Assembly (NCBI GenBank): GCA_905182175.1
Contig: CAJJAT010000021.1
Span: forward strand, 1-40,125
DNA length: 40,125 nucleotides
Direction: 5' to 3'
From: Flavobacteriales bacterium UBA1494
GTDB taxonomy: Bacteria; Bacteroidota; Bacteroidia; Flavobacteriales_E; Vicingaceae
Position 1 is the first letter of the stretch. Every line of letters begins with the position of its first letter. Of this stretch, positions 4,739 to 40,125 are shown in pieces. The position numbers and the translations under genes are program-made. The notes beneath the pieces are model-generated. The model was given only the letters and a program-made list of their open reading frames with translations, ran no database searches and had not been told where the DNA came from.

Positions 4739-6064
4739 ATGGGAACTTTTGAAATTACTGGCGGTAAAAAGCTAAAGGGAGACTTAACTCCTCAAGGGGC
4801 AAAAAATGAAGCACTTCAAATATTATGTGCTGTACTACTAACCCCTGAGAAAGTAACCGTTGAGAATATCCCTGACATTATAGATGTCAACAAGCTAATT
4901 GATTTATTGAAAGACTTAGGGGTTAAGGTTGAGGAGATTCCGAATTCTGCAACCAAAGCAGGAAGCAAAACGTTCACTTTTCAAGCAGATGAAATTGACA
5001 TTGAGTACTTAAACACGCAAGAATTTAAGAAAAAAGGCTCAGGGTTAAGGGGATCTGTTATGATTTTAGGTCCATTGTTATCGAGATTTGGCAAGGGATA
5101 TATTCCAAGACCGGGTGGTGATAAAATTGGCAGAAGAAGACTAGACACTCACTTTATTGGTTTCCAAAAATTAGGAGCTAAGTTTATTTACAACAAGGAA
5201 AACAAGTTTTACAAGGTTGAAGCGAGTAACCTAAAAGGGTGTTACATGCTTTTAGATGAAGCTTCAGTAACAGGCACAGCGAACATCGTTATGGCTGCTG
5301 TTTTAGCGAAAGGAACTACTACCATTTATTATGCGGCTTGTGAACCATATTTACAGCAACTATGTAAAATGTTGAACCGAATGGGTGCTAAAATCAGCGG
5401 TATTGGTTCTAATATGTTAACGATTGAAGGCGTGACATATCTCGGAGGCTGTGAGCATCGAATTCTTCCAGACATGATTGAAATTGGAAGTTTTATTGGC
5501 CTTGCAGCGATGACAGGTTCTGAAATTACAATTAAAGATGTTTCTTATCCAGATTTAGGCATTATTCCAGATACTTTCAGAAAACTTGGAATTAAAATTG
5601 AATTACAGGGGGATGATTTATACATCCCTGGGCAAGAGAATTACGAAATTGAGACGTTCATTGACGGTTCAATTATGACAATTTCTGATGCACCATGGCC
5701 TGGATTCACTCCGGATTTATTAAGTATTATTTTAGTTGTTGCTACCCAAGCAAAAGGGTCCGTCTTAATTCACCAAAAGATGTTTGAAAGTAGGTTGTTC
5801 TTTACTGACAAACTAATTGACATGGGTGCCAGAATAATTTTATGTGACCCCCACAGAGCCACTGTGATCGGAATGAACAACGAATCTCCTCTAAGAGGTA
5901 TTCAAATGACATCTCCTGATATTAGGGCTGGTGTCTCCTTATTAATTGCGGCAATGTCTGCAAAAGGAAAAAGTGTCATTCACAACATTGAGCAGATAGA
6001 CCGCGGTTATGGCAAAATAGATGACCGTTTAAATGCAATAGGAGCTGACATTGTCAGATTATAA
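4739..6064 (+). CDS. murA: UDP-N-acetylglucosamine 1-carboxyvinyltransferase (Asp-type MurA)
   Basis: Cytoplasmic enzyme of 441 residues for the first committed step of peptidoglycan synthesis: transfer of enolpyruvate from PEP to UDP-GlcNAc. It has the EPT/inside-out barrel fold. Lys22-Asn23 in PQGAKNEAL match the conserved substrate-binding pair. The active-site loop reads PRPGGDKIGRRRLDTH, so the position of E. coli Cys115 is Asp128 (codon 5120-5122). Asp-type MurAs, as in Mycobacterium, Chlamydia and Borrelia, are not alkylated by fosfomycin, so intrinsic insensitivity is predicted. The gene follows DUF4290 by 15 bp. A weak AT-rich hairpin near 6069-6087 may end the transcript. Confidence 0.96.
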   Translation: MGTFEITGGKKLKGDLTPQGAKNEALQILCAVLLTPEKVTVENIPDIIDVNKLIDLLKDLGVKVEEIPNSATKAGSKTFTFQADEIDIEYLNTQEFKKKGSGLRGSVMILGPLLSRFGKGYIPRPGGDKIGRRRLDTHFIGFQKLGAKFIYNKENKFYKVEASNLKGCYMLLDEASVTGTANIVMAAVLAKGTTTIYYAACEPYLQQLCKMLNRMGAKISGIGSNMLTIEGVTYLGGCEHRILPDMIEIGSFIGLAAMTGSEITIKDVSYPDLGIIPDTFRKLGIKIELQGDDLYIPGQENYEIETFIDGSIMTISDAPWPGFTPDLLSIILVVATQAKGSVLIHQKMFESRLFFTDKLIDMGARIILCDPHRATVIGMNNESPLRGIQMTSPDIRAGVSLLIAAMSAKGKSVIHNIEQIDRGYGKIDDRLNAIGADIVRL

Positions 6065-6230
6065 TCCTGAAGAATAACTTCTTTTAGACACTTTACAATT
6101 CAATTTAATTACTGCGATTCTATTAAATATATACTCATTGACTTTGAAATAAATATAATCTGCAGCAGAATTTATACGACAATAGTCTCTGTTTTAACAT
6201 TTTTTGATTTTTAGACTAACCCATTTCTTG

Positions 6231-6238
6231 TACTTTTA
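6231..6238 (+). promoter_or_regulatory. Possible -7 box of the TlpA-like gene, with downstream hairpin
   Basis: TACTTTTA resembles TAnnTTTG (7 of 8), with a TTG at 6204-6206, 24 nt upstream. Downstream, an inverted repeat GGCATT-ATT-AATGCC at 6245-6259 would form a small hairpin in the 5' leader. The leader would be about 40 nt. Confidence 0.3.
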
Positions 6239-6281
6239 AAGCTTGGCATTATTAATGCCTTCACCAAACTAAACAACTATT

Positions 6282-6854
6282 ATGAAATCGAATAAAATTA
6301 TAGCGATTTGTATTTTAGCAACCTCATTAATCTTGGTTGCTTTTACCAATTCAAACGATTCTAAAGAAACCGTTACTATTCTAGGCAATGAGGTAACCAT
6401 TGGACTTAACATTGGAAATAAGGCGCCTGAAATAAAATTAAATGATCCAAACGGAAAAGAAATAGCGCTATCAGACTTGAAAGGACAAATGGTGTTAATT
6501 GATTTTTGGGCTGCTTGGTGCGGACCTTGCCGAAGAGAAAATCCAAATGTAGTAAAGACATATAATCTGTTCAAAGACAGTAAATTTGAAAATGGAAATG
6601 GATTCACAGTCTATAGCGTTTCGTTAGATAAAGACCCTAAAAAGTGGCAGAATGCAATTATGCAAGATCGGCTCACATGGCCAAATCATGTTAGTGATTT
6701 AAAAGCCTGGGGTACAGCTCCAAGAATAGATTATCAATTTTCTGGAATTCCTTTTGCTGTACTCATCGATGGTAACGGTATTATTGTTGGAAAAGGGAAT
6801 AACGTTAGAGGACAAAATTTAGGAATGCTTCTGAATAATTTTGTAAAAAAGTAA
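6282..6854 (+). CDS. TlpA/ResA-like thiol-disulfide oxidoreductase
   Basis: A 190-residue exported thioredoxin-fold protein. An N-terminal hydrophobic segment (about 5-21) acts as signal peptide or membrane anchor and places the domain in the periplasm. The AhpC/TSA-redoxin core begins at about 45 (GNKAPEIKLNDPNGKEIAL). The active site is WCGPC with Cys80 and Cys83, and the cis-proline loop is GIPFAVLID (Pro157). Members of this family reduce or isomerise disulfides of envelope proteins, including c-type cytochromes; the partner here is unknown. It appears to be a single-gene transcription unit between murA and a strong terminator. Identity as a redoxin is clear; the exact role is not. Confidence 0.92.
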   Translation: MKSNKIIAICILATSLILVAFTNSNDSKETVTILGNEVTIGLNIGNKAPEIKLNDPNGKEIALSDLKGQMVLIDFWAAWCGPCRRENPNVVKTYNLFKDSKFENGNGFTVYSVSLDKDPKKWQNAIMQDRLTWPNHVSDLKAWGTAPRIDYQFSGIPFAVLIDGNGIIVGKGNNVRGQNLGMLLNNFVKK

Positions 6855-6876
6855 TACATAACAACACCTAAGGTAT

Positions 6877-6912
6877 AAAAAAGCTCGATAGGAATTCCTA
6901 TCGAGCTTTTTT
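6877..6912 (+). terminator. Perfect rho-independent terminator after the TlpA-like gene
   Basis: A perfect palindrome, AAAAAAGCTCGATAGGAA and its complement, ends in a run of six T. With two or so bases left out to form the loop it gives a long stem flanked by A and T tracts, so it could work in both directions. It starts 22 bp after the stop codon at 6854. Confidence 0.9.
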
Positions 6913-7654
6913 CGTTTTAAAATCCTTATTAAACTCGCCTCAAGCAATTTACAATTTCTTGAGGCGACTCATGTCGTAATATAATACTGGGTTTTAGCAT
7001 TAATTTTATTTTAATACTCGTAGTAAGATCTATATCTTGCAATACTCCCATTTGCCAATTAACTTTAATTATATCATTTTAAGAATATTAGAAACGCTCG
7101 TAATGCAAATTTATGGAACAAGAGTTGAGAAAATCCTCAAGATATTTCTGTAGCTCATCAAGGTTGTATCATGTAGCATATAACCTTCGAAAACGGCATT
7201 CCCCTCATTAAACCTGATAGCTTCCATATTTCATAGCGATCTAGTCTTATTTAACAACCATACTCTTTTGGCTCCTGTATTAAGGTAAAGCCCGTAATTT
7301 GGAGTATTTTACAAATGTATCCCAAGCAATACCAAAAACCTTAAGAAAATTCAATCTCAATTGCCGTCACTTCGTAAAATCTAGAAGACCTTTTACGGGA
7401 ATTATACTCCACCTGTGACAACCATCAAGCATGTTGCGAAACTACGAGCAAGGTGTAATTTGATACTTTACCACTTATTAACAAGAATCAGCACAGTATC
7501 AGCTTCAGTAAGCTAACAAACCTGCGGGTAATTGTAACGAAAAGGGACTAATGAATTCTAAAAAAAGAAAAGACAAAAATCAAAGAATATATCTTGTACT
7601 TAGATCTTTTTTAAGTGACCAAGTCGGAAACAATTCAAACTTAAATTTTCAAAA
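6913..7654. other. Gene-poor stretch between the TlpA-like gene and grpE
   Basis: About 740 bp with no supportable gene. An inverted repeat CGCCTCAAG/CTTGAGGCG (6936-6944 and 6958-6966, 13-nt loop) lies just after the terminator but has no T run. A 39-codon minus-strand frame at 7111-7227 reads fairly naturally but has no recognisable relatives. The stretch may hold a decayed gene; no tRNA or riboswitch fold was identified by eye. Confidence 0.5.
6936..6966. repeat. Inverted repeat, 9-bp arms
   Basis: CGCCTCAAG (6936-6944) pairs perfectly with CTTGAGGCG (6958-6966) across a 13-nt AT-rich loop. No T tract follows on the + strand, so it is not a typical terminator. It could be an RNA hairpin, a binding site or a remnant of decayed sequence. 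Confidence 0.5.
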
Positions 7655-7661
7655 AATATTT

Positions 7662-7673
7662 GTGTATTTACAC
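7662..7673. promoter_or_regulatory. Palindrome at the predicted grpE transcription start
   Basis: GTGTA-TT-TACAC is a perfect 12-bp inverted repeat. It starts at the last base of a weak -7-like box (AATATTTG, 7655-7662) and would cover the transcription start, a suitable place for a repressor. A similar but longer-spaced palindrome sits in the same position upstream of the mnmD gene (10788-10804). Confidence 0.35.
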
Positions 7674-7695
7674 CCCAAAATTAAATTCTGTCATT

Positions 7696-8319
7696 ATGAC
7701 AAATACTAAACTTGGCAAAGCGTTTGGGAAGGAGGAGTTGAGAACAAAAACTTCAAAAATGAAAGACGAGAAAAACTCAGTAGAAGAGCAAGAAGAAAAG
7801 GTGGAAGATGCCATTGAAAACGAAGATACTGCGGCAGCTGAAGATTCAACTCCAGAAGAAGAGTTAACAGACATTGAAAAGAAAGATATTGAAATTCAAG
7901 AGCTAAAGGAAAAGCACCTCCGATTATATTCTGAGTTTGATAACTTTAGAAGAAGAACACAGAAAGAAAAATTAGAGCTTTACAAAACAGCTGGAGAGGA
8001 TCTTTTCAAAGTATTGTTACCCGTAATGGATGACTTTGAACGTGCCAAAAAGTCAATGGAAGAAACCCAAGACTATGACAGTTTGAAAGTAGGAGTTGAC
8101 TTAATTTATAATAAATTTCAGCACATTTTTAAAACAAACGGACTAGAGCCAATGCCTGATATTGTTGGAAGTGCATTCGACAGTGAGATACATGAAGCCA
8201 TTACGCAAATTCCCGCTCCAACTGATGAAATGAAAGGAAAGGTAGTTGATGTAGTTGAACAAGGGTATACCTTGAAAGAAAAGGTAATTCGTTTTGCCAA
8301 AGTAGTTGTAGGAAAATAA
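7696..8319 (+). CDS. grpE: Nucleotide exchange factor GrpE
   Basis: GrpE releases ADP from DnaK and so drives the Hsp70 chaperone cycle in the cytoplasm. The protein is 207 residues from ATG 7696. An acidic, disordered N-terminus rich in Glu is followed by a long coiled coil ([23 protein letters not shown]) and the C-terminal beta domain ([10 protein letters not shown]... [16 protein letters not shown]), which carries the family signature. ATG 7759 (MKDEKNS) is an alternative start that would remove 21 residues of variable sequence; a GGAAGGAGG run about 25 nt upstream of it is too far for a normal Shine-Dalgarno. dnaJ follows after 8 bp, a standard heat-shock operon; dnaK is not in the window. 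Confidence 0.95.
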
Positions 8320-8327
8320 AACACATC

Positions 8328-9482
8328 ATGGCAAAAAGAGATTATTACGAAGTATTAGGAGTAGAGAAAAATGCTACTACACAAGAAATAAAAAAGGCTT
8401 ACAGAAAGCTTGCTTTAAAATTTCACCCAGATAAGAATCCGGATAACAAAGAGGCTGAGGACAAGTTTAAAGAAGCTGCAGAAGCTTACGAAGTACTGAG
8501 CAACGACGAGAAAAAAGCAAAATACGATCGTTTTGGACATTCCGGAATGGGTGGCGGCGGAGGCTTTGGCGGCGGCGGCGGTATGAATATGGATGATATC
8601 TTCTCACAGTTCGGCGATATTTTCGGCGGCGGCGGAGGGTTTAGCGGTTTTGGCGGCGGCGGAGGTGGTCGTGGAAGCAGACGAGTAAATCGAGGGAGCA
8701 ACATCAGGGTTAAAGTTAAAATGACTTTAGCCGACGTTGTAAATGGAGTTGAGAAAAAGATCAAAGTCAAAAAGTTTATTAACTGTTCTCCTTGCTCTGG
8801 GTCAGGAGCAGCAGGTGGCTCAGGAGGTTTTACTACCTGTGACACGTGTAAGGGAGCTGGTCAAGTAAATAGAGTTACCAATACGTTTTTAGGTCAGATG
8901 CAAACCGCTGCAACTTGCCCAACTTGCGGTGGCGACGGTAAAATAATTACGAATAAGTGTAACTCTTGTCATGGTGATGGAATTGTAAAAGATGACGATA
9001 CAATTGAATTGAAAATTCCTGCAGGTGTGGAAGATGGCATGCAATTATCCGTTTCTGGAAAAGGAAACATGGGCGCTCGAAATGGCGTTGCAGGTGACTT
9101 AATTGTTCTAATTGAAGAAGAAGAACACGAAGACTTGAAAAGAGACGGAAATAATATCCTTTATGACTTATACATTTCATTACCTGATGCTATTTTAGGA
9201 ACCGACGTTACAGTGCCCACGGTAAATGCCAAGGCTAAGATTAAAATCGAACCAGGTACACAAGGGGGTAAAGTTCTTAGATTAAGAAACAAAGGGATTC
9301 CTGAGGTGAATGGCTACAGAACAGGTGATCAAATGGTGAATGTTAATGTTTGGACTCCTCAAACACTTTCGAAAGAGGAAAAAGAAATAATTGAAAAATT
9401 GAGAGGTGCTGATAATTTTAAGCCCAACCCTACAGATCAAGACAAAGGATTCTTTGAGCGAATGAAAGAATATTTCAAATAA
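8328..9482 (+). CDS. dnaJ: Chaperone protein DnaJ
   Basis: Type I Hsp40 co-chaperone of 384 residues that delivers unfolded clients to DnaK and stimulates its ATPase. The J domain (about 1-70) has the essential HPD at 33-35. The Gly/Phe region (about 75-125) is extreme, with several Gly runs written as GGC/GGT/GGA repeats. The zinc-finger domain has all four CxxCxGxG motifs: [24 protein letters not shown] and CNSCHGDG. The C-terminal client-binding domains follow ([11 protein letters not shown]... [21 protein letters not shown]). It is co-transcribed with grpE (8-bp gap) and ends at a terminator two bases after its stop. Confidence 0.98.
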
Positions 9483-9483
9483 T

Positions 9484-9512
9484 AAAAAATCCTGCTTTTA
9501 GCGGGATTTTTT
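9484..9512. terminator. Bidirectional terminator between dnaJ and the YkgJ-like gene
   Basis: AAAAAATCCTGC pairs with GCGGGATTTTTT through one T-G wobble around a TTTTA loop. A and T runs on both sides let it serve dnaJ on the + strand and the convergent gene on the - strand, whose stop codon overlaps it at 9511-9513. Confidence 0.85.
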
Positions 9513-9993
9513 ATTTCATCATTTTTCCTACAACTTCTGCTACTGCAGGACAAAGCCTCGTGTTTTTAGCTGTTACATCCAATATTTGATGCATTCGTTT
9601 ACGGTTAGTATGTGGAAATTCCCTGCAAGCCTTCGGTCGTGAATCATAAGCCATACATTTATTGTCTTCCTGCAAAAAAGGACATGGAGACGATTGTAAT
9701 ACTTGGTCTCCATCCTCATCTATCCTTAAATATTGATCAAAGAATTTAGCAGGTTTTATTCGAAAGTGCGATGCCATTCTCTCTATGTCTTTGTCGTAAA
9801 AGATCGGGGAAGTCGTTTTACAGCAATTAGCACAATCTAAACAATCAATTTTCTCAAAAGCTTTGTCATGAAGGTCATGAAAAGTGTCATCTAAATCTTT
9901 CGGGGGGCGCTTCGCCAATTTTCCTAAAAACTTATTGACTTCTTTGCGATTTGCTTTTGCTACATCTATTTTTTTTTGTAATTCAGGTTTCAT
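9511..9993 (-). CDS. YkgJ-family cysteine cluster protein
   Basis: A 160-residue cytoplasmic protein of the YkgJ/CxxCxxCC family, thought to bind zinc or an iron-sulfur cluster; its biochemical role is not established. The ligand set is visible: CLDCANCC near the middle, CPFL, KCMAYDSRPKACREFPH, and LCPA near the C-terminus. The N-terminal ~40 residues are basic and helical. I place the start at ATG 9993 (MKPELQKK) rather than the in-frame ATG at 10008, because the five extra codons lie in or beside a degenerate 21-bp tandem repeat that occupies the upstream region. The gene is convergent with dnaJ and downstream of mnmD on the same strand. Confidence 0.85.
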   Translation of the reverse strand: MKPELQKKIDVAKANRKEVNKFLGKLAKRPPKDLDDTFHDLHDKAFEKIDCLDCANCCKTTSPIFYDKDIERMASHFRIKPAKFFDQYLRIDEDGDQVLQSSPCPFLQEDNKCMAYDSRPKACREFPHTNRKRMHQILDVTAKNTRLCPAVAEVVGKMMK

Positions 9994-10811: not shown

Positions 10812-10880
10812 CCCTTTCAGTCTGTCCTATTTGTTACAAATTATCCCAAAGTTAGGGAGTAACTTCACAAAAAAATAGAA

Positions 10881-11498
10881 ATGGAAACTCAGATCAACAC
10901 AACTATAACCAAAGATTTGCTAACAAATGCAATGAGCTACCAAGAATACATGACATTACTTTTAAATTTGTTGGACGTTAACAAAACTACTGGAGAGGAT
11001 CAAAGTGAAGCAATGGTAGCATATGGAAAAATGAACGTCCATCGAATGAAACGCTTAAATAAGACAATACAATTACAACCTGAATTGCAAAAAGTACTAG
11101 ACGACTTGACGCGAAAAATGACTTTTTTAGTCATTACAGAAGGCTGGTGTGGTGACGCTGCTCAGAATGTTCCTGTATTTAATGTGCTACGTGATAATTC
11201 TGATAAAATTGACGTCCGATTAATTCTAAGAGATAAAAATTTAGAGATTATGGATGCTTTTTTAACTAACGGAGGTCGTTCTATTCCAAAGTTGATTGCG
11301 CTTGATTCTGAAACATTAGAGATTTTAGGAACTTGGGGACCTAGACCTGAAGCAGCTCAACATATGGTTACAGAATTCAAAAAAATAGAAAATGGAGATT
11401 ACAGTGAGTTTGTTAAAGAAGTTCAACTGTGGTATGCCCATGACAAAACGATTGCCATGCAAGAAGAATTACTTATTTTACTAAATGATTGGAATTAG
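10881..11498 (+). CDS. Thioredoxin-family protein with single active-site Cys (WCGDA)
   Basis: A 205-residue cytoplasmic protein with a thioredoxin-like domain in its second half. The redox motif reads TEGWCGDAAQNVPVF: Cys90 is present but the second Cys of CxxC is Ala. GGRSIPKLIALD is the cis-proline loop. This resembles the Thioredoxin_9-like proteins common in Bacteroidota. With one Cys it could act through a monothiol mechanism or as a thiol-binding protein rather than a dithiol reductase; its partner is unknown. There is no signal peptide. It lies divergent from mnmD and its end overlaps nothing real; the lipoprotein gene starts 49 bp later from its own promoter. Confidence 0.85.
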   Translation: METQINTTITKDLLTNAMSYQEYMTLLLNLLDVNKTTGEDQSEAMVAYGKMNVHRMKRLNKTIQLQPELQKVLDDLTRKMTFLVITEGWCGDAAQNVPVFNVLRDNSDKIDVRLILRDKNLEIMDAFLTNGGRSIPKLIALDSETLEILGTWGPRPEAAQHMVTEFKKIENGDYSEFVKEVQLWYAHDKTIAMQEELLILLNDWN

Positions 11499-11534
11499 TA
11501 CCGCAATATTTAAAACTTTCAACGTTTGTAAAGT

Positions 11535-11542
11535 TATATTTG
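11535..11542 (+). promoter_or_regulatory. -7 box (TAnnTTTG) of the beta-helix lipoprotein gene
   Basis: TATATTTG matches the consensus exactly and ends 5 nt before ATG 11548, predicting a leaderless mRNA. No good TTG -33 element is present at the expected distance. Confidence 0.5.
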
Positions 11543-11547
11543 CACCC

Positions 11548-13011
11548 ATGACGTTCAATAGACTATTCCTCCTTTTTTTTCTGACTTTATTTATTTTTTC
11601 GTGCAGAAACGATGAAGAATTTATTGAAGATAATAGCGCAAAGTTAGACTTCTCAACAGATTCAATTTCATTTGATACCGTTTTTACAACAATAGGATCA
11701 GTCACACAAAATTTTAGAATCTATAACCCGCATAAAAAAGCCATTCGGATTAATTCGATTCGTTTACTTGGAGGTACAAATTCTAACTTTAGAATTAACA
11801 TTGACGGACTATCAGGCAACGACATCAAAAACCTTGAAATACCGGCTCAAGACAGTTTATTTGCCTTCATTGAAGTTACCATTAATCCAGATAACAGTCT
11901 CAACCCTTTTGTAATTGAAGATTTTATAGAATTCACAACAAATGGCAACCAACAACGGATTATTCTTACCGCTTGGGGTCAAAATGCAATTTACTATACG
12001 CCTACCTCATTCAATAGAAATCTTCCAGACTTTACCTGTTTAACAGGACCTTGCAGCGATGTTATCGCTCCCGTTGACGTAACCTGGACAGATAGTTTAC
12101 CCATTGTAATTTATGGTTTTATCGCAATTGACACCTTGGATAAGTTAACCATCGAAGCAGGAACTAAAATACACTTTCACCAAGGTGGCGGCATGTGGGT
12201 TTATCGCGGAGGAAGTTTAACCGTAAATGGAACGAAACAAGATCCTGTTGTATTTAGAGGAGACCGTTTGGAACCAGGCTTTGAAGATGTACCCGGTCAA
12301 TGGGACAGAATTTGGATCAATGAAGGTGCTATCAATACTATTAACTACGCCATAATTCAAAATGCATTTGTAGGGATCCAAGCCGAAGCACTTTTTTTAA
12401 ATGGCACTCCAATCGAACAAGGAAATCTAAGATTAAAAAATACGGTTATTAAAAATTGCTCTGGGATTGGTTTACTAACAGCCTATTTTAACATCGCTGC
12501 TGAAAATACTATAATTACGAATTGCAGAGAGTACAATGCAGTAATACAATGGCTAGGAAACTGGGTATTTGACCATTGCACTTTTGCAAATTACGCCACT
12601 GGTACCGGTCGAGAAACTCCTTCCGTTTTTATAAAAAATAATTATTCGGTTGGTGCCTCTCTATTTGTAGATCCACCAAACGTAACTTTTAGAAATTGTA
12701 TCATATATGGCTCGTTAGATTCTGAGTTCAATATTGAAGAAATAAACAATAAGGGTTCTAACGTAAGTGTTTTAAATTCAATTTTAAAAACGGACGAGAA
12801 TACTTCAGACGCTAATAAATATCTGAATTTACTAAAAAATCCGCTTGACGAAATATTTAAGGATGCCAATGCTTCTGATTTTGAACTTTATGATATTTCG
12901 CGTGCAAGAAACATTGGAAGTGTAGGGGTTGGTAGTTTGGTTCCTTTTGATTATAATGGAAACGACAGACGAATAGACGGACTCCCGGACGCAGGCGCCT
13001 ACGAATTTTAA
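11548..13011 (+). CDS. Lipoprotein with right-handed beta-helix domain
   Basis: A 487-residue lipoprotein. The hydrophobic signal FNRLFLLFFLTLFIFSC ends in a lipobox with Cys as the acylation site, so the mature protein is anchored in the outer membrane or faces the periplasm. After an N-terminal beta-sandwich-like region (FDTVFTTIGSVTQNFRIYNPHKKAIRI, similar to choice-of-anchor/DUF1573-type modules), residues from about 170 show repeated short strands (LTVNGTKQDPVVFRG, NYAIIQNAFVGIQA, LKNTVIKNCSGIGLLTA, ENTIITNC) typical of a parallel beta-helix. The C-terminus, DRRIDGLPDAGAYEF, is the usual end of Bacteroidota beta-helix proteins. No polysaccharide lyase residues could be assigned. The start at ATG 11548 fits the signal peptide and the -7 box. 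Confidence 0.85.
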   Translation: MTFNRLFLLFFLTLFIFSCRNDEEFIEDNSAKLDFSTDSISFDTVFTTIGSVTQNFRIYNPHKKAIRINSIRLLGGTNSNFRINIDGLSGNDIKNLEIPAQDSLFAFIEVTINPDNSLNPFVIEDFIEFTTNGNQQRIILTAWGQNAIYYTPTSFNRNLPDFTCLTGPCSDVIAPVDVTWTDSLPIVIYGFIAIDTLDKLTIEAGTKIHFHQGGGMWVYRGGSLTVNGTKQDPVVFRGDRLEPGFEDVPGQWDRIWINEGAINTINYAIIQNAFVGIQAEALFLNGTPIEQGNLRLKNTVIKNCSGIGLLTAYFNIAAENTIITNCREYNAVIQWLGNWVFDHCTFANYATGTGRETPSVFIKNNYSVGASLFVDPPNVTFRNCIIYGSLDSEFNIEEINNKGSNVSVLNSILKTDENTSDANKYLNLLKNPLDEIFKDANASDFELYDISRARNIGSVGVGSLVPFDYNGNDRRIDGLPDAGAYEF

Positions 13012-31053: not shown

Positions 31054-31803
31054 TTACTTCTTAACGTATTGAATGATCTTTCGCAGAGGCTTAAACAACA
31101 AGGTATATGACTTAGGGGTTAATCCATTCATGATCCATGCTTTTCGGTCTTCTTTATTAGCCTTCACTCTATTCTTTAAGGAGGAATTGCTCATTCCGCC
31201 AACCCGCATGCGCACCAATGGCCTCGAAATATAACAAGTAGAAAGTTTGTTTTTAAACAATAACCGTAGCATTAACTCATAGTCAGACGCTGACTTTAAG
31301 GACAAGTTAAAATTGCCATACTTTTCATAAGCCGTTCGCTTAACAAAAAAGGTAGGATGAGGCGGCATCCAACCATATAAAAACTTTCTGCGACTGTACT
31401 TTCCCGACACCCACTTGCGAATCACTTTATTTGTGTCCTCTGCAGCTACATAATACAAATCGGAATACAAGCTATCCGCCTTTTCTTCTTGCATTTTTTC
31501 TACCACCTCGCCAATCACCTTATCGTCTATGTAAAAATCATCTGCATTCAAAATGGCTATTATGTCCCCTTTACAAAGTTGGATTCCTTTGTTGATTGCA
31601 TCGTACATGCCTTTGTCTTTTTCAGAAAGAATGGTCGAAATGTCCCGCTTGTATTTTCCTATAATTTTCAAGGTGTCGTCAGTAGATTCTCCATCTATGA
31701 TGATGTAATCAATGTCTGGATAACTTTGCCCCAAGACAGACTGAATAGTCCCTTCTATGGTTGCGGCGGAATTATAACATACAGTAATGACGGAAACTTT
31801 CAA
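31054..31803 (-). CDS. Family 2 glycosyltransferase
   Basis: A 249-residue GT-A fold glycosyltransferase of GT2. The N-terminus MKVSVITVCYNSAATIEGTIQSVL and the nucleotide-sugar motif DIDYIIIDGESTDDT are typical, and NADD at about 86-89 is the DxD-type metal site. GWMPPHPTFFVKRTAYEKYG and ASDYELMLRLL form the acceptor/base region. It is similar to WcaA/colanic-acid type enzymes that add one sugar to a lipid-linked repeat unit on the inner face of the membrane. It is the last gene of the polysaccharide cluster, 4 bp after the carbamoyltransferase. The sugar is not predictable. Confidence 0.93.
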   Translation of the reverse strand: MKVSVITVCYNSAATIEGTIQSVLGQSYPDIDYIIIDGESTDDTLKIIGKYKRDISTILSEKDKGMYDAINKGIQLCKGDIIAILNADDFYIDDKVIGEVVEKMQEEKADSLYSDLYYVAAEDTNKVIRKWVSGKYSRRKFLYGWMPPHPTFFVKRTAYEKYGNFNLSLKSASDYELMLRLLFKNKLSTCYISRPLVRMRVGGMSNSSLKNRVKANKEDRKAWIMNGLTPKSYTLLFKPLRKIIQYVKK

Positions 31804-31807
31804 TTAT

Positions 31808-33529
31808 CTAATTTCTTTTAATTACAAAATTTTCCAGTACCAAAACATCCATTTGAGTTCTTAAATAGCAATCTAGTGCTTCAGCAGGCGTATTTACGAT
31901 AGGTTCGTTTTCGTTAAATGAAGTATTCAATAAAATAGGAGTTCCTGATAACTCATGAAACTTTGAAATTAAATCGTGGTACCTATCTCCTTTCGATACG
32001 GTTTGCAACCTTCCGGTTCCATCTACATGAGTTACAGCTGGAATTTCAGAATGTTTTTCTTTTTTTATTGGATAAACCTTTTCCATAAAAGGAACCTTGT
32101 CCGTTTTTTCAAAATACTCAGAAACATACTCTTCAAGAATTGAAGGAGCAAAAGGCCTAAAACTTTCTCTTCTCTTAATTTTGGAATTAAGCAGCTCTTT
32201 TGCATCCGCCCTTCTTGGGTCAACTAAAATAGACCTATGTCCTAACGCTCGAGGACCAAATTCCGCTCTTCCTTGAAACCATCCAACAACTGCTCCATTG
32301 ATTAATTCGGTAGCAACAGTATCTATTAGCTCATTATCAGAGTACTTCGTAAATTCAACATCTCTATCCTTTAAACACGCCTCTATTTCTAAATCATTGG
32401 TCTTGTACCCCGTATATGCATCATAAACTGCTGGAAGTCTATCGTTCTTCTGAATGTGGTTAAATAACCATAAAGCGGACCCCATTGCAGTTCCAGCATC
32501 ATGACCTGCAGAAGGAATATAAACTTCTTCAAACTTCGTATTCTCTAAAATTTTCCCATTCGCAACTGAATTTTGAGCTACTCCTCCAGCAATGCAGACA
32601 CTTTTTAAGCCGGTTCTTTTCTGCAAATGATTTAGTATATGAAAAATCAGCTCTTCTGTCACTCTTTGAACTGAAGTTGCTATATCTTTGTGTTTTTGGG
32701 TCAATTCATCTCCCCCTTTCCTTGCCGGACCTAAAAGCACTTCTAGTTCACTTGAAAATATAGACTCCATACTTGGGTCGCCACCTTCCCAGCTCATACT
32801 CACACCTTCTTTAGCGTGCTTAAAATATTTTGTATCTAACTCAAATAGTCCATTGTCTTTAAATCGAATTACCTTTCGTAATTCTTCTACAAACTTCGGC
32901 TCACCATATGGCGCTAATCCCATCACCTTATACTCATCCCCATAATGAGAAAACCCTAAATATTGAGTTAATGAAGTATAAAAAATACCCGCTGAATGAG
33001 GATAAATTACCGAATCGATCACTTCAATTTGATTCCCTTTCCCTTTTGCGATCATGGTAGAAGTGAAATCTCCAAAACCATCAATAGAAAGAATTGCAGA
33101 TTCATCAAATGGAGAGGCAAAAAATGCACTAGCCAAATGACTTCTATGATGTTCAATATTATGAATTTCAGCTTTAAGTTCAGATTCATTAATTCCAAAA
33201 ACCTCACAAAGTTCCGATTTCACATTACCGACTTTTTTCGTATTCGAGAGTCTATCCTTTAATGCTTTGATGGATACTAAATTCTTTACAGAATGAACTA
33301 TTTTCTTGTGAATATTTGCAGATGGGTTTCTTGAAATGGTAACATGATCTAATTCCCCAATAGAAATCCCTGCTTCTATTATACAAAACTTAATGGCTTC
33401 TGAAGGGAAACCCGCCCAATGTTTTATTCTCCTAATTCGCTCTTCTTCAGTTGCCGCTACAACTATACCATCCTTTAAAATACAAGCTGATGAGTCTCCG
33501 TGGTAAGCATTTATTCCTAGAATGTACAT
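31808..33529 (-). CDS. NodU/CmcH-family O-carbamoyltransferase
   Basis: A 573-residue enzyme that transfers a carbamoyl group from carbamoyl phosphate, through carbamoyl-adenylate, to a hydroxyl. The N-terminal Kae1/YgjD-like domain has NAYHGDSSACI, ATEEERIRRIKHWAGFP, the metal-binding HHRSHLASAFF, and LSIDGFGDFTS. CIAGGVAQNSVANGKI and AGHDAGTAMGSALW follow. The C-terminal carbamoyltransferase domain has QGRAEFGPRALGHRSILVDPR and KRRESFRPFAPSI. Family members modify Nod factors, antibiotics and surface glycans; in this cluster the target is very likely a sugar of the exopolysaccharide or O-antigen. It lies 38 bp after a GT4 and 4 bp before a GT2. Confidence 0.94.
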   Translation of the reverse strand: MYILGINAYHGDSSACILKDGIVVAATEEERIRRIKHWAGFPSEAIKFCIIEAGISIGELDHVTISRNPSANIHKKIVHSVKNLVSIKALKDRLSNTKKVGNVKSELCEVFGINESELKAEIHNIEHHRSHLASAFFASPFDESAILSIDGFGDFTSTMIAKGKGNQIEVIDSVIYPHSAGIFYTSLTQYLGFSHYGDEYKVMGLAPYGEPKFVEELRKVIRFKDNGLFELDTKYFKHAKEGVSMSWEGGDPSMESIFSSELEVLLGPARKGGDELTQKHKDIATSVQRVTEELIFHILNHLQKRTGLKSVCIAGGVAQNSVANGKILENTKFEEVYIPSAGHDAGTAMGSALWLFNHIQKNDRLPAVYDAYTGYKTNDLEIEACLKDRDVEFTKYSDNELIDTVATELINGAVVGWFQGRAEFGPRALGHRSILVDPRRADAKELLNSKIKRRESFRPFAPSILEEYVSEYFEKTDKVPFMEKVYPIKKEKHSEIPAVTHVDGTGRLQTVSKGDRYHDLISKFHELSGTPILLNTSFNENEPIVNTPAEALDCYLRTQMDVLVLENFVIKRN

Positions 33530-33567: not shown

Positions 33568-34698
33568 TCAATTTGAAAGAAATAAATCTATATTACTATT
33601 AATTATGTCTTTATTGACGAAGGTTTTGTTAGAATATTTGAAACATGATTGAGACCAATTTTTATATTGATTATCTCCCATGGAATAAGCATATTCCATT
33701 TTGACCTTCCAAGAAGAAATATCGTGTAAAGCTAAATCAAACCCGACTTGTTCTTCCTCTAATCCAACCCAAGGAGTTTGATCACTTATAATAACCGGAA
33801 CTCCAATGTTAATTGCTTCTACAATTGAGTGTCCGTAGTTTTCATTAAAGCTTGGAAGAACATAGAATTGATACTTTTTAAGTGTTTCATTCACCTTATC
33901 AGGAGATAAAATTCCCTTGTATGCGACCCGACTATCTTTATCTATATAGTTCAGACATTGACGCCAGTAATCATCCTCTTCTATTGGTCCGAAAATATCA
34001 AATTGCAACTCTGTTAGCTCTTTTAAGGAAGATAGTAATCGTAAGAAATAAATCAAGTTTTTTTTCTCCGAGACTCTAGATATAAAGACCAATTTGAGCT
34101 CATTCTCTTTCTTAAATCCTTCCTGTAGTTCTCTTTTTCCTGGTTCAGAAGATATATTTTGTGCGACAAAAATTTTAGCTCCATCTCCAAATACATTTTT
34201 TACTTCTTTTGCTTCTTGATCAGTGGAAGTATGCCAAATAATATTTTTTAATACCAAAAACTTTGCTAAACCTAAAAATATTTTCTTCTTCATTGGTTTT
34301 ATAGCCAACGCACCTGCCCCTAACATCCCTCGTGGAGCAATGATGTTTCTGACTTTTGTTTTCGCCTGAAAGTACATCAGAGGTTTTATAGTATATCCGA
34401 GAGAGAACATACTATTGTAGTACACAATTTCTGGCTGTTTATTTTCGATAATGCCTTCGTATATCTTCTTCCTATCAGCACTCTCATTCAAATAGTAAAT
34501 TGAATATTTATCTCTGTTGATTTGACAGTTCACCTTAACATCTAAAACCGTTCCATCTGCATCTCTATTTGAAGTCACAACTGTAAAATCGCATTCATTC
34601 GAAATAGCCCCTATAATATTAAAAACAGATTTAATGGGTCCTCCAGCTTTATAAGCAGGATAAAACCAATCTATGAATATAATTACTGCTCTTTTCAT
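33568..34698 (-). CDS. Family 4 glycosyltransferase
   Basis: A 376-residue GT-B fold glycosyltransferase. The N-terminus has the acceptor-domain signature FYPAYKAGGPIKSVFNII, the centre the linker KLVFISRVSEKKNLIYFLRLL, and the donor-domain EX7E motif is ENYGHSIVE in FNENYGHSIVEAINIGVPVI. It probably adds a hexose to the lipid-linked repeat unit. It follows the next GT4 by 1 bp and precedes the carbamoyltransferase, all on the minus strand. The donor sugar cannot be inferred. Confidence 0.92.
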   Translation of the reverse strand: MKRAVIIFIDWFYPAYKAGGPIKSVFNIIGAISNECDFTVVTSNRDADGTVLDVKVNCQINRDKYSIYYLNESADRKKIYEGIIENKQPEIVYYNSMFSLGYTIKPLMYFQAKTKVRNIIAPRGMLGAGALAIKPMKKKIFLGLAKFLVLKNIIWHTSTDQEAKEVKNVFGDGAKIFVAQNISSEPGKRELQEGFKKENELKLVFISRVSEKKNLIYFLRLLSSLKELTELQFDIFGPIEEDDYWRQCLNYIDKDSRVAYKGILSPDKVNETLKKYQFYVLPSFNENYGHSIVEAINIGVPVIISDQTPWVGLEEEQVGFDLALHDISSWKVKMEYAYSMGDNQYKNWSQSCFKYSNKTFVNKDIINSNIDLFLSN

Positions 34699-34699
34699 A

Positions 34700-35692
34700 T
34701 TAACTTGAAGCCACCTTTTTATACACTCTCAAGTACTTCTCTCCTATATCTCTTGGGTTAAATCGTTTTATATTTTCTTGCCCAAGCACGACAAGCTCTG
34801 CACTAAACTTTTCATCCTTTAATATTTTTTTTACTCCTTTCCTTATTTGTTCTACTGAATATGGATTCACAAGCAATGCTCCCCTCCCAGCAATCTCAGG
34901 CATTGACGCAACGTTACTAGTAAGCACAGGACGCCCCGTGGCTTGTGCTTCTATGATAGGCAGACCAAATCCTTCATAAGTAGAAACAAATAAGACAAGA
35001 TCTGATAATGCATAAAGATCATTTAATTCTTTATTGGACACTGATTCAAAATAATCATATATAATACCCCTTCGCTTCATCTTCGCTTTCTGAATAGGAG
35101 TTGGTTTTCCTACTATAATCAACCTACAATTGAAACCGGCTAGAGCTTCTACCACACGTAAAAGATTCTTGTTTTTTTTCACACCTATTTGCAAAAGAAT
35201 AGGGGGGTCATTTTTTTGTTCAATCTTCTGCTGGTAAAAAAATTCAGGAGAAACTGAGTTGGCAATGGTGATATATTTGCTTCTCGAAACATTATATCTG
35301 GCTACAACTTCACTACATGTAAATTCAGAGATAAATATAATCTGCTGAACCCGGGATATTGGAAGTTTAAACCATAAGTATTCAAATATTTTTTTCCTCA
35401 ATCCCTTGTAAGTATAAACAGGGTATATATCATGAACTGTTAAGATAGATCCCTTTTTAGGAAGAAAAACAGCGATATAATTTATATCCCCACTTATATG
35501 ATTCACATCTCCCCTTTTAAGTCCTGCATACATCGCATTTAACACTCTTCTAACTATTCCTTTACTTTCAAATGGCATTATACACACTTGAAAATTTACC
35601 TTATTTGCTAAAAATGGCAATAAAGAAGAATAAACTCGCTCTATGCTATGTTGCCCAGGATATGGTTTTCTTAAAAACAAGACTACCTTCAT
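34700..35692 (-). CDS. Family 4 glycosyltransferase
   Basis: A 330-residue GT-B glycosyltransferase, slightly short for the family. LTVHDIYPVYTYKGLRKKIFEYLWF lies in the acceptor domain, PPILLQIGVKKNKNLLRVVEAL in the linker, and YEGFGLPIIEAQATGRPVLTS holds the EX7E motif of the donor site, followed by EIAGRGALLVNP. It resembles mannosyltransferase-like enzymes of O-antigen clusters. Its ATG overlaps the stop of the upstream polymerase gene by 4 bp, a sign of translational coupling, and its stop lies 1 bp before the next GT4. Confidence 0.92.
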   Translation of the reverse strand: MKVVLFLRKPYPGQHSIERVYSSLLPFLANKVNFQVCIMPFESKGIVRRVLNAMYAGLKRGDVNHISGDINYIAVFLPKKGSILTVHDIYPVYTYKGLRKKIFEYLWFKLPISRVQQIIFISEFTCSEVVARYNVSRSKYITIANSVSPEFFYQQKIEQKNDPPILLQIGVKKNKNLLRVVEALAGFNCRLIIVGKPTPIQKAKMKRRGIIYDYFESVSNKELNDLYALSDLVLFVSTYEGFGLPIIEAQATGRPVLTSNVASMPEIAGRGALLVNPYSVEQIRKGVKKILKDEKFSAELVVLGQENIKRFNPRDIGEKYLRVYKKVASS

Positions 35693-37035
35693 AGCATTCG
35701 ATTTTTCTCAGCTTCAAAGGCACCCAAAAGAAAAAATAAAGTAGCTGTACCACTTAGGACTATAGAAACGCAATACATAAAGATAATGTAAATCGAAAAT
35801 CTATTTGCGGCAATCTTGCGATCCATGGCAATATTAATAAATGGAATAAGAAGAATAAAGAGCCCAATAATACCGAAGTCATATATAAATATCAATAAGT
35901 CAGAGTTAAATGGGACTAAAAATGTGCCATTATTTAAAATTCCTGCCTTTCCTGGATATTCTTTTGCCAAAGCTAAGTTATATACCCCTGGGCCTAGCCC
36001 TATTACAAACATCCCAAGGTTATTGACCATAAATTCTTGACCATATACTTCTGACCTTATTATATTGCTCTCCAGTTGCCCTTCCACCCGAATATCATAT
36101 ACCAGGTTTAGGTAATCGCTCTCACTTGCAAAAGCGACGATTCCTACAAAACCAAAAAAGAAAATATATCGAATAATTTGACCGTTGTAGTTCCGAAATA
36201 TTGAATAAAGCAATAGAAGCATGATAAAAACTGCCAATACAAAATAAATAGAAGTAGAATATGTTAGCCATAGTACTACGAAGTGAAAAATCAGAACAAT
36301 AATTAAGGGGAAAAATCCGATACGATTCTTTATGCTTTTGTAATACTTTAAAATGATTAAAATCCCAATCACAATAAAATAAGTGAGTCGCTTGGGTTCA
36401 TTAGCTAAAGAATTTACTCGGAAAATCAATTCTTCATTATTATTAAACCCTCCAAAACCAGATGTTTTATCAGAATAAACTATCCCGCGATAAGGCCATC
36501 CAAATTCATTGGCATAAAACTGATAAACTCCATATAAACACAAGATACTAGTCGTAATTAAGAAGCTTTTTAATAACCGCTGGACACCTAATTGTAGTGT
36601 GCATTCCTTCCGAACTATCAAAAAAATTAACATGTAATTCAGATACCCAATTGCTTGAATAATTAAGCGAGTTCCAACAATTGAGCTCGTAAGGTAGCTC
36701 GAATAATAATTCGAATAAAATGATCCTATTACAGTTGAAAAAATAACCATGACCAGCACTGTTATAATCCAAAATTGATTTTTAACAGAGTTTTTATAGT
36801 AACCTATTCCTTTACTGGCGACCGTAGCAATCACAAAAACCGCAGGCACTAATTTATCGGGCGTTAACCGTGGACCCACTTCAATAAAAAAGAAAAAACT
36901 GAGGCAAGCCGGTAGAATAAAAAGTATCCGATGAGGTTTAGTAAACCCTGCAAATACAGCGTAAGCCATCAAACTATAAACAACAATATAATCTATAGGC
37001 CCATGCCCCAGTACATTACCCATGATATGTCTCAA
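35689..37035 (-). CDS. Wzy-like O-antigen/exopolysaccharide polymerase
   Basis: A 448-residue integral membrane protein with about 11 predicted hydrophobic helices. The large outer loop near residues 330-390 carries FVIGLGPGVYNLALAKEYPG and FNSDLLIFIYDFGIIGLFIL, matching the O-antigen ligase/polymerase (Wzy_C-like) pattern of G-x-GPG-x-(F/Y) followed by a loop before two helices. It is expected to join repeat units on the periplasmic side. Ligase and polymerase roles cannot be separated by sequence alone, but its place among GT4 genes favours the polymerase. ATG 37035 overlaps the upstream GT4 by 20 bp; ATG 37023 is an alternative. No Wzx flippase is in the window. Confidence 0.82.
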   Translation of the reverse strand: MRHIMGNVLGHGPIDYIVVYSLMAYAVFAGFTKPHRILFILPACLSFFFFIEVGPRLTPDKLVPAVFVIATVASKGIGYYKNSVKNQFWIITVLVMVIFSTVIGSFYSNYYSSYLTSSIVGTRLIIQAIGYLNYMLIFLIVRKECTLQLGVQRLLKSFLITTSILCLYGVYQFYANEFGWPYRGIVYSDKTSGFGGFNNNEELIFRVNSLANEPKRLTYFIVIGILIILKYYKSIKNRIGFFPLIIVLIFHFVVLWLTYSTSIYFVLAVFIMLLLLYSIFRNYNGQIIRYIFFFGFVGIVAFASESDYLNLVYDIRVEGQLESNIIRSEVYGQEFMVNNLGMFVIGLGPGVYNLALAKEYPGKAGILNNGTFLVPFNSDLLIFIYDFGIIGLFILLIPFINIAMDRKIAANRFSIYIIFMYCVSIVLSGTATLFFLLGAFEAEKNRML

Positions 37036-38194
37036 TTAAGCGGTCTACTGCATTTTCCCAAGTATACGTATTTATAAATAAGTTATACTTCTTCTCGTCG
37101 ACCTTTAGATGATCGACTATTTTTATGTAATGATGGATCAATTTATTCTGATTTGCATCTTTTAAGTCAATTAATATACCATCTACCATATCCATCATTT
37201 CAGGTATTGCCCCCACTGGAGTTGCTATAACAGGTAATCGATAAGAAACTGCATCTAAAACAGTCATGCAAAACCCCTCTTCAGATGACAATTGTAGGTA
37301 CAAATCTGCAGATTGATATAATTCAATTAATGTTTCTTCAGGAATATTATGATTTACTGTAACCACCTTATCCAATTTCCTTTTATTGAGCGCATTTAGA
37401 AAGTATTTGTAATATCTTTTATTTCTTATTGGACCTACAACATTCCATTTAAATTCTACTCCATTATTCAATAAGTAATGAGCAATATCTGCTATTAAAT
37501 GTTGGTTTTTATGCGGGACAAAACCTCCTACGGTTAATAAACGAATCGGGCCAGAAGAGCGCTCTTTTGGTAACACAGAAACCTTAGCTCCCCCATGACC
37601 GATTACTTTTATTGAAGAGTTTTCTACATAACTCATAAGATTCACTCTAACTTCTTCGCTAGGGACAATATAAACGTCAAACTTATTTTTTTGAATTCGT
37701 CTGCGATTCATAAAACCTACGATTTCTTTACGAGCTGTATCTTTAAGATACAGCAAAGTAGAGTCTCCCCTCCAAGAGTTAGAACACTCCTGAGGCGGAA
37801 TGTTATGAATGGTATTAATTGTTCTTATCCTTTTCTCTCTTAATTTTTTAGTATCCAGAATTTCGGCTATAAATAGACCAAATAAAATATGTATTAAATT
37901 AATATTATAGTTCTGAGATAAAGTAAAAACACTATTCTTTATATAAGTACAATAGAGGTTTCGTTCCTCTGCATCAAAATTTAACTCTCCAACTGACTTA
38001 ACTCCTAATTTTAAAAGGACCAATGGAGATGAGACATGCTTCTCTTCAACAATTTTACCGAGCTCACCAACTGCTGGAGCCAGTAAATACACCTTATTTA
38101 TCTTTTTTGATAGTGTTACAGCTGTGTTTTCTACATAGGAAACAGTGCCCCCAATTTTAGGAAAATAATGCTCGGAAAGTAAAAGGGCATTCAT
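37016..38194 (-). CDS. Family 4 glycosyltransferase
   Basis: A 392-residue GT-B glycosyltransferase. The N-terminus MNALLLSEHYFPKIGGTVSYVENTA is the classic GT4 acceptor segment with the GG loop. RLLTVGGFVPHKNQHLIADIAHYL is the linker. The donor motif reads SSEEGFCMTVLDAVSYRLPVIATPVGAIPEMM, where the second Glu of EX7E is Asp, a tolerated but less common variant. An upstream ATG at 38200 adds two residues. It lies downstream of the broken acyltransferase and overlaps the polymerase gene. Confidence 0.9.
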   Translation of the reverse strand: MNALLLSEHYFPKIGGTVSYVENTAVTLSKKINKVYLLAPAVGELGKIVEEKHVSSPLVLLKLGVKSVGELNFDAEERNLYCTYIKNSVFTLSQNYNINLIHILFGLFIAEILDTKKLREKRIRTINTIHNIPPQECSNSWRGDSTLLYLKDTARKEIVGFMNRRRIQKNKFDVYIVPSEEVRVNLMSYVENSSIKVIGHGGAKVSVLPKERSSGPIRLLTVGGFVPHKNQHLIADIAHYLLNNGVEFKWNVVGPIRNKRYYKYFLNALNKRKLDKVVTVNHNIPEETLIELYQSADLYLQLSSEEGFCMTVLDAVSYRLPVIATPVGAIPEMMDMVDGILIDLKDANQNKLIHHYIKIVDHLKVDEKKYNLFINTYTWENAVDRLIETYHG

Positions 38195-38297
38195 GATCAC
38201 CTAGTGTTGATTCCTTAAAATATTAGGTATGCTAAATTATAGTATTATCTTGATATGTTAGCCAATCAATAAGCGTTTAATTACTAAAGGATATAAT

Positions 38298-39423
38298 TCA
38301 ATTCAGGGGAGGACTCGTTGCTCCCGTTATTCTTCTTTTTAATTTCAAAAAGTGTTTTTCAACAACATGATAACTAGACCAAGCTATTATCATTGATAAC
38401 AATAGACTTATTATATTTTCACCAATACTCACCCAATAAATCGAATCTTCAAGCTTTATGATCTTAGTGATGTTAAATAAAATCAAGATACCTATTGGAT
38501 ATTTACAATAAAGGTCATAGGTATACTTCCCCCAATAATTTAAAAACTTTACCCTCCCTAAATTAAAAAGAGGGTTCTTCACAAACACCTGTTCAAAAAT
38601 GATGTAGGCAAAAAAAAATCCTGATAGAGTCGTAAAAAAAGCAATTCCAAGAGAAGATGTAAAGTAAATGGGGTAAAGAAAGATCATCGTCAAGCCAAAT
38701 ACATAAATACCAGAATTGACTAGTTTAGGAATGAAGATCGAAGATTGAAGAAATTTTTTCGCAAAACAAAAATAGCCCAACAAGCAACCTATGCCTAAAA
38801 CTCCCATAACGCTAAACGTATGATAGACTAACGTTTTAAAATCTTCAAAATTTAAATACCTAAAATAAATCGACCCAGCAATGATAGCCACTATAACCCA
38901 TAAAGGAAGTTTTCTAAAAAAGAACAGTAGAGGCCAAAATAAATAAAATTATTCCTCTACACCTACAGACCACAAAACAATTAAAAATTATTTAAGGGAT
39001 ATGCATCGTGTAAGACTAATTGAAAATTAGGAATGAAAAACAGATAATAATAGAGCGATGCAGTTTCAACTTTCCCTGTCTTAGTAATAATTTCAATAAA
39101 AGATCAAACAAAATAAAAGCATATGCTAAAATCATAAAATAAAGAGGCCAAATCCGCAGTACTCTTCTCGCCCAGAAATTAAGAATATTATACCGCTTTT
39201 TTTCCGATTTATTTTCCTCCACTAGCAATAAGTAAGTAATCAGGAAGCCACTTAAAACAAAAAAAAATCCACTCCTAACCGACCATATTGGTAAACTGAA
39301 AGCATCAATTTGAATACTGAGTTATCTAAAATAGACGATTGTGTTGTATTAAATCCATACACTAGAAACACTCCAAGAAAGGCAATAAATCTCCAAGCAT
39401 CCAAGTTTTTGAAAAAAACTCAT
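38298..39423 (-). pseudogene. Acyltransferase 3 (OafA/YrhL-like) pseudogene
   Basis: Pieces of one membrane O-acyltransferase can be read in order across several frames: DAWRFIAFLGVFLVYGFNT (start region, from ATG 39423), RLGVDFFF/VLSGFLITYLLL, FWARRVLRIWPLYF, LYYYLFFIPNFQLVL, LWSVGVEE-stop-FYLFWPLLFF, then an open C-terminal half. The frame breaks at the A7 run 39412-39418, the A9 run 39259-39267, near 39100-39115, and at the A5 run 38983-38987. An ochre stop replaces Gln of VEEQFYLFWP at 38949-38951. The catalytic His of the first helix appears as Tyr. A GTG at 38891 opens the intact 197-residue C-terminal part (38298-38891), which lacks the active site. The family acetylates surface glycans; here it is most likely dead. 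Confidence 0.88.
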
Positions 39424-39568
39424 TTTCCTGCACTTTTTAGGGTTACTTGCATTTTATTTTATTTTCTCTTTAATTATTTCATCCATTTTCAATAGATGAA
39501 AGGCGATTTTTATTTTCAGGTTACACTGTCTTACGACTAGAAGAACGATCATATTCTCTGCACTTACC
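39424..39568. other. Short spacer with no gene
   Basis: 145 bp between the GT2 and the broken acyltransferase. It is AT-rich, with no terminator and no clear TAnnTTTG box on the minus strand. Confidence 0.4.
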
Positions 39569-40125
39569 TTAGTTCATATACTTAGCACCAGAAGATTTCA
39601 TTTTTAAAGCATTCACAAAGGATCTTATAATCCTTCCTGAAGCCAACAACCACAATTGAGGTCGCATCAAAGTAGTCCTGTTAAAAATCAGATAACGTAT
39701 GGTAGCATGATAATACAACAAACAATACTTAATCGGCGCCATTCTTAAATCGAAATAGATTGCACCCTCCATGTTGTGCTGCTCTTTTATGTAATTACCT
39801 TTATTCCAAGACCTTATGCCTCCTAAAGGATTTCCGATATGGACTAAGCTCGCTTTCGGATCAAAAAGAAAAGGGCCATATTTCCGATGTATTCTTAAGC
39901 AAAAATCTCCTTCCTCTCGGTGAGCTCCCTTCAAGTAATTTTCGTCCATTCCACGAACGGCGATAGCATAATCTTTCCTTACGGATAAGTTATTTGATCT
40001 GCCCACTGAAATATACGCGTTACATCCGAAATTACTTGGAAAATATAACCAACCTGCCTCTGCCGAAAGGTAGCTCATCCAATGTCGTTGATACGTTTTC
40101 TTTTGATTGCCTTCTAATTCTAATG
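39569..40125 (-). CDS. Family 2 glycosyltransferase, cut by the window edge
   Basis: The C-terminal part of a GT2 enzyme; the frame stays open to base 40125 with LELEGNQKKTYQRHWMSYL before the first internal Met, so the N-terminal catalytic half lies outside the window. ISVGRSNNLSVRKDYAIAVRGMDENY matches the (G)xNLSVRR-D...GGFDE block, and HREEGDFCLRIHRKYG matches the ED-x-DLxLR base region, with Glu-Glu-Gly-Asp in place. The ~70-residue C-terminal tail is basic and partly hydrophobic (RMAPIKYCLLYYHATIRYLIF), as in membrane-associated GT2s. It is the first visible gene of the polysaccharide cluster. Confidence 0.88.
   Translation of the reverse strand, partial: LELEGNQKKTYQRHWMSYLSAEAGWLYFPSNFGCNAYISVGRSNNLSVRKDYAIAVRGMDENYLKGAHREEGDFCLRIHRKYGPFLFDPKASLVHIGNPLGGIRSWNKGNYIKEQHNMEGAIYFDLRMAPIKYCLLYYHATIRYLIFNRTTLMRPQLWLLASGRIIRSFVNALKMKSSGAKYMN

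Follow-up and report, generated by a model that had tools for sequence, protein, structure and literature searches.

A probably dead accessory AT3 acyltransferase gene in a polysaccharide cluster of Flavobacteriales bacterium UBA1494

Introduction

The closest functional counterparts of the gene described here are the stand-alone surface-polysaccharide O-acyltransferases of the AT3 family (Acyl_transf_3, PF01757). An R-X10-H motif and its role have been described for the AT3 protein OafB in the accessible portion of PMC9833829, and the same motif of AT3 is given in the accessible portion of PMC9558356.

The closest parallels for the loss of such a gene come from pneumococcus. Extracts of the respective papers describe a frameshifted wcyO in the absence of wcjE (PMC6218050), frameshifts in wciG (PMC11934437), wciG deficiency in 20C (PMC11705870), and the case of wcjE in 11E (PMC4072641). 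Capsule loci are well known for O-acetyltransferase losses of this type, and the event described below is of this known kind, an ordinary dead gene. For marine Bacteroidetes, the partial texts returned by a literature search contained nothing on pseudogenes of this sort.

The window, that is, the whole stretch of DNA analysed, is an entire contig of 40125 bp (C21) from a 3.33 Mb genome in 45 contigs. Its AT3 gene shares with the functional family whole-length homology, the RXXR motif, the Arg of R-X10-H, and glycosyltransferase neighbours. Unlike a functional AT3 gene, it has a broken frame and a Gln-to-stop change, and the His of R-X10-H and a second invariant His are gone. With pneumococcal wcjE, wciG, and wcyO, as presented in the extracts available, it shares the loss of an accessory acyl decoration by inactivating mutation within a working polysaccharide locus. 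The pneumococcal loci come from a pathogen whose capsule chemistry and serology are known, whereas the glycan made by the cluster in the window is putative.

Results

The gene cluster

The AT3 gene is the second of eight genes on the minus strand, listed in the order of transcription.

39569 to 40123, minus strand: GT2-like glycosyltransferase, C-terminal part, upstream neighbour, truncated where the contig ends (40125)
38298 to 39423, minus strand: AT3 (Acyl_transf_3, PF01757) pseudogene, identified by frame-tolerant profile alignment and a Pfam match of the read-through
37016 to 38200, minus strand: GT4 glycosyltransferase, intact, downstream neighbour of the pseudogene
35689 to 37035, minus strand: membrane protein in the polymerase (Wzy-like) position, of a length as in relatives; putative name, no Pfam match
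34700 to 35692, minus strand: GT4 glycosyltransferase, intact
33568 to 34698, minus strand: GT4 glycosyltransferase, intact
31808 to 33529, minus strand: carbamoyltransferase, intact
31054 to 31803, minus strand: GT2 glycosyltransferase, intact

For every complete gene of the cluster, two or more relatives give an unbroken alignment that covers almost the whole gene. The part of the GT2-like gene that is present has 51–56% identity to homologues in three relatives and no Pfam match. The description of the cluster as otherwise intact, made in the original prediction, applies to the other complete genes; the gene beyond the pseudogene is truncated by the end of the contig.

Third-position G+C is 0.448 in the GT2 gene that ends the cluster, compared with 0.26–0.31 in the five other genes of the cluster for which it was determined; this GT2 gene is perhaps a newer arrival. 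At the far end of the window, positions 1–1604 hold a sole ORF of at least 100 codons (873–1217, 114 aa). Scans of the window for tRNAs and Rfam families gave no matches, in this segment or elsewhere.

Lesions of the AT3 gene

The coordinates and strand first proposed are right. AT3 homologues match three different minus-strand frames within 38298–39423 (tblastn). The region was aligned in a frame-tolerant manner to a profile of 45 rows, comprising 44 homologue ORFs of at least 300 aa and the copy from the L069 locus described below, with X at its stops. The alignment scores 498 log-odds units, against 20 for the other strand and 16–20 for three shuffles, and contains three frame changes and one in-frame TAA. 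The positions of the frame changes are identical at shift penalties of 10, 14, 18, and 24. The lesions, from the start of the gene to its end, are as follows.

39412 to 39418, minus strand: A7 run near the gene start, site of the first shift originally predicted; upstream of the aligned region, probable
39357 to 39359, minus strand: His-to-Tyr at the R-X10-H motif, Arg kept; His in 43 of 45 rows
near 39265, in the A9 run 39259 to 39267, minus strand: frame change, by profile alignment
near 39083, within the stretch 39067 to 39115, minus strand: frame change away from any run of 5 or more, by profile alignment and by tblastn pieces ending in two frames
near 38988, beside the A5 run 38983 to 38987, minus strand: frame change, by profile alignment
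38949 to 38951, minus strand: in-frame TAA, Gln-to-stop in the EEQFY block; Gln in 44 of 45 rows
38514 to 38516, minus strand: Gly-to-Asp; Gly in 43 of 45 rows
38499 to 38501, minus strand: second His-to-Tyr; His in 45 of 45 rows

Three of the four frameshifts that had been predicted (A9, A5, and a further shift) are thus recovered by the profile alignment. The fourth, at the A7 run, precedes the aligned region; an ATG just upstream in another frame makes it probable. The predicted CAA-to-TAA stop within VEEQFYLF and the His-to-Tyr change at the expected catalytic position both stand at the codons listed.

Near-invariant columns are those with the same residue in at least 93% of rows. The pseudogene is altered at 5 of 34 such columns (two His-to-Tyr, Gln-to-stop, Ala-to-Gly, and Gly-to-Asp), of which two are among the 27 in the N-terminal half and three among the seven in the C-terminal half. 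The 44 intact homologues show 0–4 changes, with a median of 1, at 34–36 columns. Five near-full intact homologues differ at 3–4 columns, so the count of five is by itself not decisive; another homologue, L012_16_307, which is truncated where its locus begins, lacks four. The RXXR motif is present (RRVLRIWP is readable in one frame), and its columns are unaffected by the losses, while R-X10-H is broken. The decay, originally called recent, is so only in relative terms, since these five positions are altered besides the frame lesions.

A single open frame of about 360–400 codons is absent; the longest minus-strand stretch in 38201–39568 has 216 codons. The read-through, with X at the stop, scores 55.7 bits against PF01757 (cut-off 31), and a genome-wide PF01757 search omits the locus. 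The gene thus combines whole-length homology to a functional family with disabling lesions in the profile alignment, as a pseudogene does. With at least four frame breaks (three shifts and one stop) and two near-invariant His residues lost, a working enzyme is not to be expected from it.

In a leave-one-out control, no frame change was called in 43 of the 44 intact homologues and one was called in the remaining homologue (L029). Because the homologues were selected as ORFs of at least 300 aa, the absence of stops among them is by construction, and the control gauges the false calls of the method. An AT3 ORF of at least 300 aa is present in all 41 search-fetched loci of the alignment, a search that favours intact genes. 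Among 87 other matches in a search of 395 genomes drawn from the class, six cross a stop codon; one of the six, L025, is also among the 41 loci.

Mutation, assembly error, or phase variation

The lesions might instead have arisen in sequencing or assembly, by errors at A/T runs or by merging of strains near the contig end, the true gene being whole. Three of the proposed shifts, including the probable one, do lie in or beside A/T runs, but one frame change has no run of at least 5 at its site, and neither substitutions at near-invariant sites nor a nonsense codon is an error of runs. Open ORFs of the genome contain 57 A/T runs of at least 7, including a run of 10 and three runs of 9. This control covers open ORFs of the window and two other genome stretches (62,733 bases summed, overlaps counted twice) and is one-sided, the ORFs having been picked as open. 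Within the pseudogene itself, an A9 run at 38610 and an A7 run at 38634 sit in the open half. The assembly is fragmented and the contig ends about 700 bp past the gene; against this, the complete neighbouring genes align to relatives without a break, as described above. Assembly error is therefore an unlikely cause of the lesions, and a whole gene behind them is improbable.

The same runs (A9, A5, and probably A7) would fit a phase-variable gene caught in its off state and switched by changes in run length. Phase variation of O-antigen acetylation has been reported, in the portion available of PMC9558356, by an epigenetic route. The gene carries at least four independent lesions, however, with one shift away from any run, a nonsense codon, and lost His residues. 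No one slippage event can repair it, and no single reversible tract accounts for its state. These several independent lesions refute a single-tract switch, and the probability left to phase variation is negligible. Mutational decay is the reading that we retain as very likely.

The C-terminal half

All frame changes and the stop fall in the N-terminal half of the pseudogene. The remainder is open.

38298 to 38891, minus strand: C-terminal half in one open frame, 197 codons from GTG; stop to stop, 38301 to 38948, 216 codons

This half could in principle be retained as a small membrane protein. Four or five lesions placed at random would all miss this half with a chance of 0.05 or 0.024, respectively. 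Open as it is in frame, the C-terminal half has nevertheless also lost conserved residues: the three altered positions out of its seven near-invariant ones include the His found in all 45 rows. It lacks the R-X10-H and RXXR blocks, and the ORF alone gives no Pfam match at E 0.001. Retention as a protein is accordingly very improbable, and decay of the whole gene is preferred.

The codon-position G+C of this half is nearly flat (0.313, 0.318, and 0.323). As a sign of decay this measure was set aside as not decisive, the intact AT3 genes of the genome being fairly flat as well.

A query with the C-terminal ORF as a single protein, which reaches close relatives only, found no close intact orthologue in genome_contigs or viral_contigs. 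Among 395 genomes drawn from the class, its best other match is at 40%.

The GT2/GT4 junction in relatives

The pseudogene occupies the junction between the GT2-like gene and the first GT4 gene. At E 1e-15, the neighbouring GT4 protein has homologues in three other genomes among 46 of the order, with identities to the window protein of 51% (G060), 48% (G005, same genus), and 43% (G010). A scan of named genomes gave five loci: NORP85, NORP294, and UBA5081 (Flavobacteriales bacterium MAGs, which make up this set of three), L069, and a Phocaeicola match. The distant Phocaeicola locus (L072) was left out of the junction count. Loci L064 and L065 were searched for cluster proteins.

Three of the four relatives have no AT3 gene at the junction; the fourth is L069. 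The GT2-GT4 spacers of the three measure 54, 73, and 249 bp in G005, G060, and G010, and no AT3 remnant in them was taken as real (best E 0.008 over 45 queries). The AT3 gene of the window cluster is thus accessory, and by losing it the genome returns to a condition that is common among relatives.

A broken orthologue in L069

L069 is the MAG contig CAJXEB010000047.1 of an uncultured Flavobacteriaceae (ERR599008_bin.83), from a run, ERR599008, that we take to be of Tara Oceans. Its GT2/GT4 gap contains two AT3 genes side by side, opposite to the cluster strand, one intact (5434–6534) and one broken (6726–7850). No closer relative of the window gene was found than the broken gene, which is on the minus strand, has 62% identity to it, and is its sister at 100/99 support. 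The broken gene shows no frame changes. Its frame contains two TAA stops, of which one falls on a near-invariant Leu and the other on a site that is not conserved, and a Gly-to-Trp change affects another near-invariant position. A tblastn search with the open piece of this gene gave 60 phage and 181 plasmid records, with identities below 60% among the matches listed (8 of each), and hence no sign of a close mobile donor in those collections.

The L069 copy resembles the window gene in lineage, in its GT2/GT4 junction, and in being broken. It differs in its opposite orientation, in keeping R-X10-H and the second His, and in its intact AT3 neighbour. Because their lesions differ, the two copies most likely broke independently. 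A tree built on two GT4 proteins of five genomes unites L069 with G060 (98) and not with the window. This grouping with a relative that has no AT3 at the junction, together with the opposite orientations, fits two separate insertions at the junction. A single AT3 gain followed by inversion and loss is a conceivable alternative.

Intact AT3 genes and the meaning of the loss

A genome-wide search for PF01757 finds two intact AT3 genes above the Pfam cut-off in the window genome, on contigs C3 and C30. Loss of all acylation, one possible sense of the lost O-acyl decoration originally predicted, does not follow since these two genes are kept; loss of one accessory decoration is likely.

The C30 gene (L015, 8256–9906) lies between a presumably gyrB-like gene and a gene matching the exosortase family, with a presumably glycine hydroxymethyltransferase-like gene on the side away from gyrB. 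It is sister to the intact AT3 gene of L069 at 97/89. The window genome and L069 thus each have one dead AT3 gene of one lineage and an intact AT3 gene of another. It is possible, although we regard it as doubtful, that the junction is an AT3 exchange site in this Flavobacteriales group, which one lineage entered at least twice, in opposite orientations, and where it died independently, the second lineage being intact. If so, the dead gene would record that one surface decoration was exchanged for another and not simply lost.

The reading that we hold very likely is a simpler one, that of a dead accessory gene for an AT3 membrane O-acyltransferase, gained at the junction and then decayed. An ancestor would have acquired the gene at an exchange-prone GT2/GT4 junction. 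Judged by position alone, the enzyme probably added O-acyl groups to the repeat unit that the cluster produces. Its donor would have been cytoplasmic acyl-CoA, as other AT3 proteins are thought to use acyl-CoA from the cytoplasm. Under relaxed selection, slippage at A/T runs and point mutations would then have broken the gene, and the cluster, including its carbamoyltransferase, would still make the glycan minus one decoration. None of the observations bears on phage or predator pressure, which the original prediction named as a possible cause of the loss.

A single dead accessory gene, taken alone, changes little, and the broken orthologue at the same junction adds slight interest. The junction is one place where gain, loss, and decay of AT3 genes can be traced across relatives. 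It suggests a turnover of acyl decorations as in pathogen capsules, here in a group known from metagenome-assembled relatives.

Two further observations concern the same-genus relative G005. Its locus L059 (G005:C175) contains, at 10822–12555, an AT3-domain protein of 577 aa with PF01757 over residues 11–321. The gene is flanked on both sides by GT4 genes of this same cluster and lies on the opposite strand, and the C-terminal extension of the protein may, judging from its length, be an SGNH part. In the same locus, the gene in the polymerase position (8522–9837) aligns in two pieces with a frame change near 9694, and may be broken or mis-assembled there.
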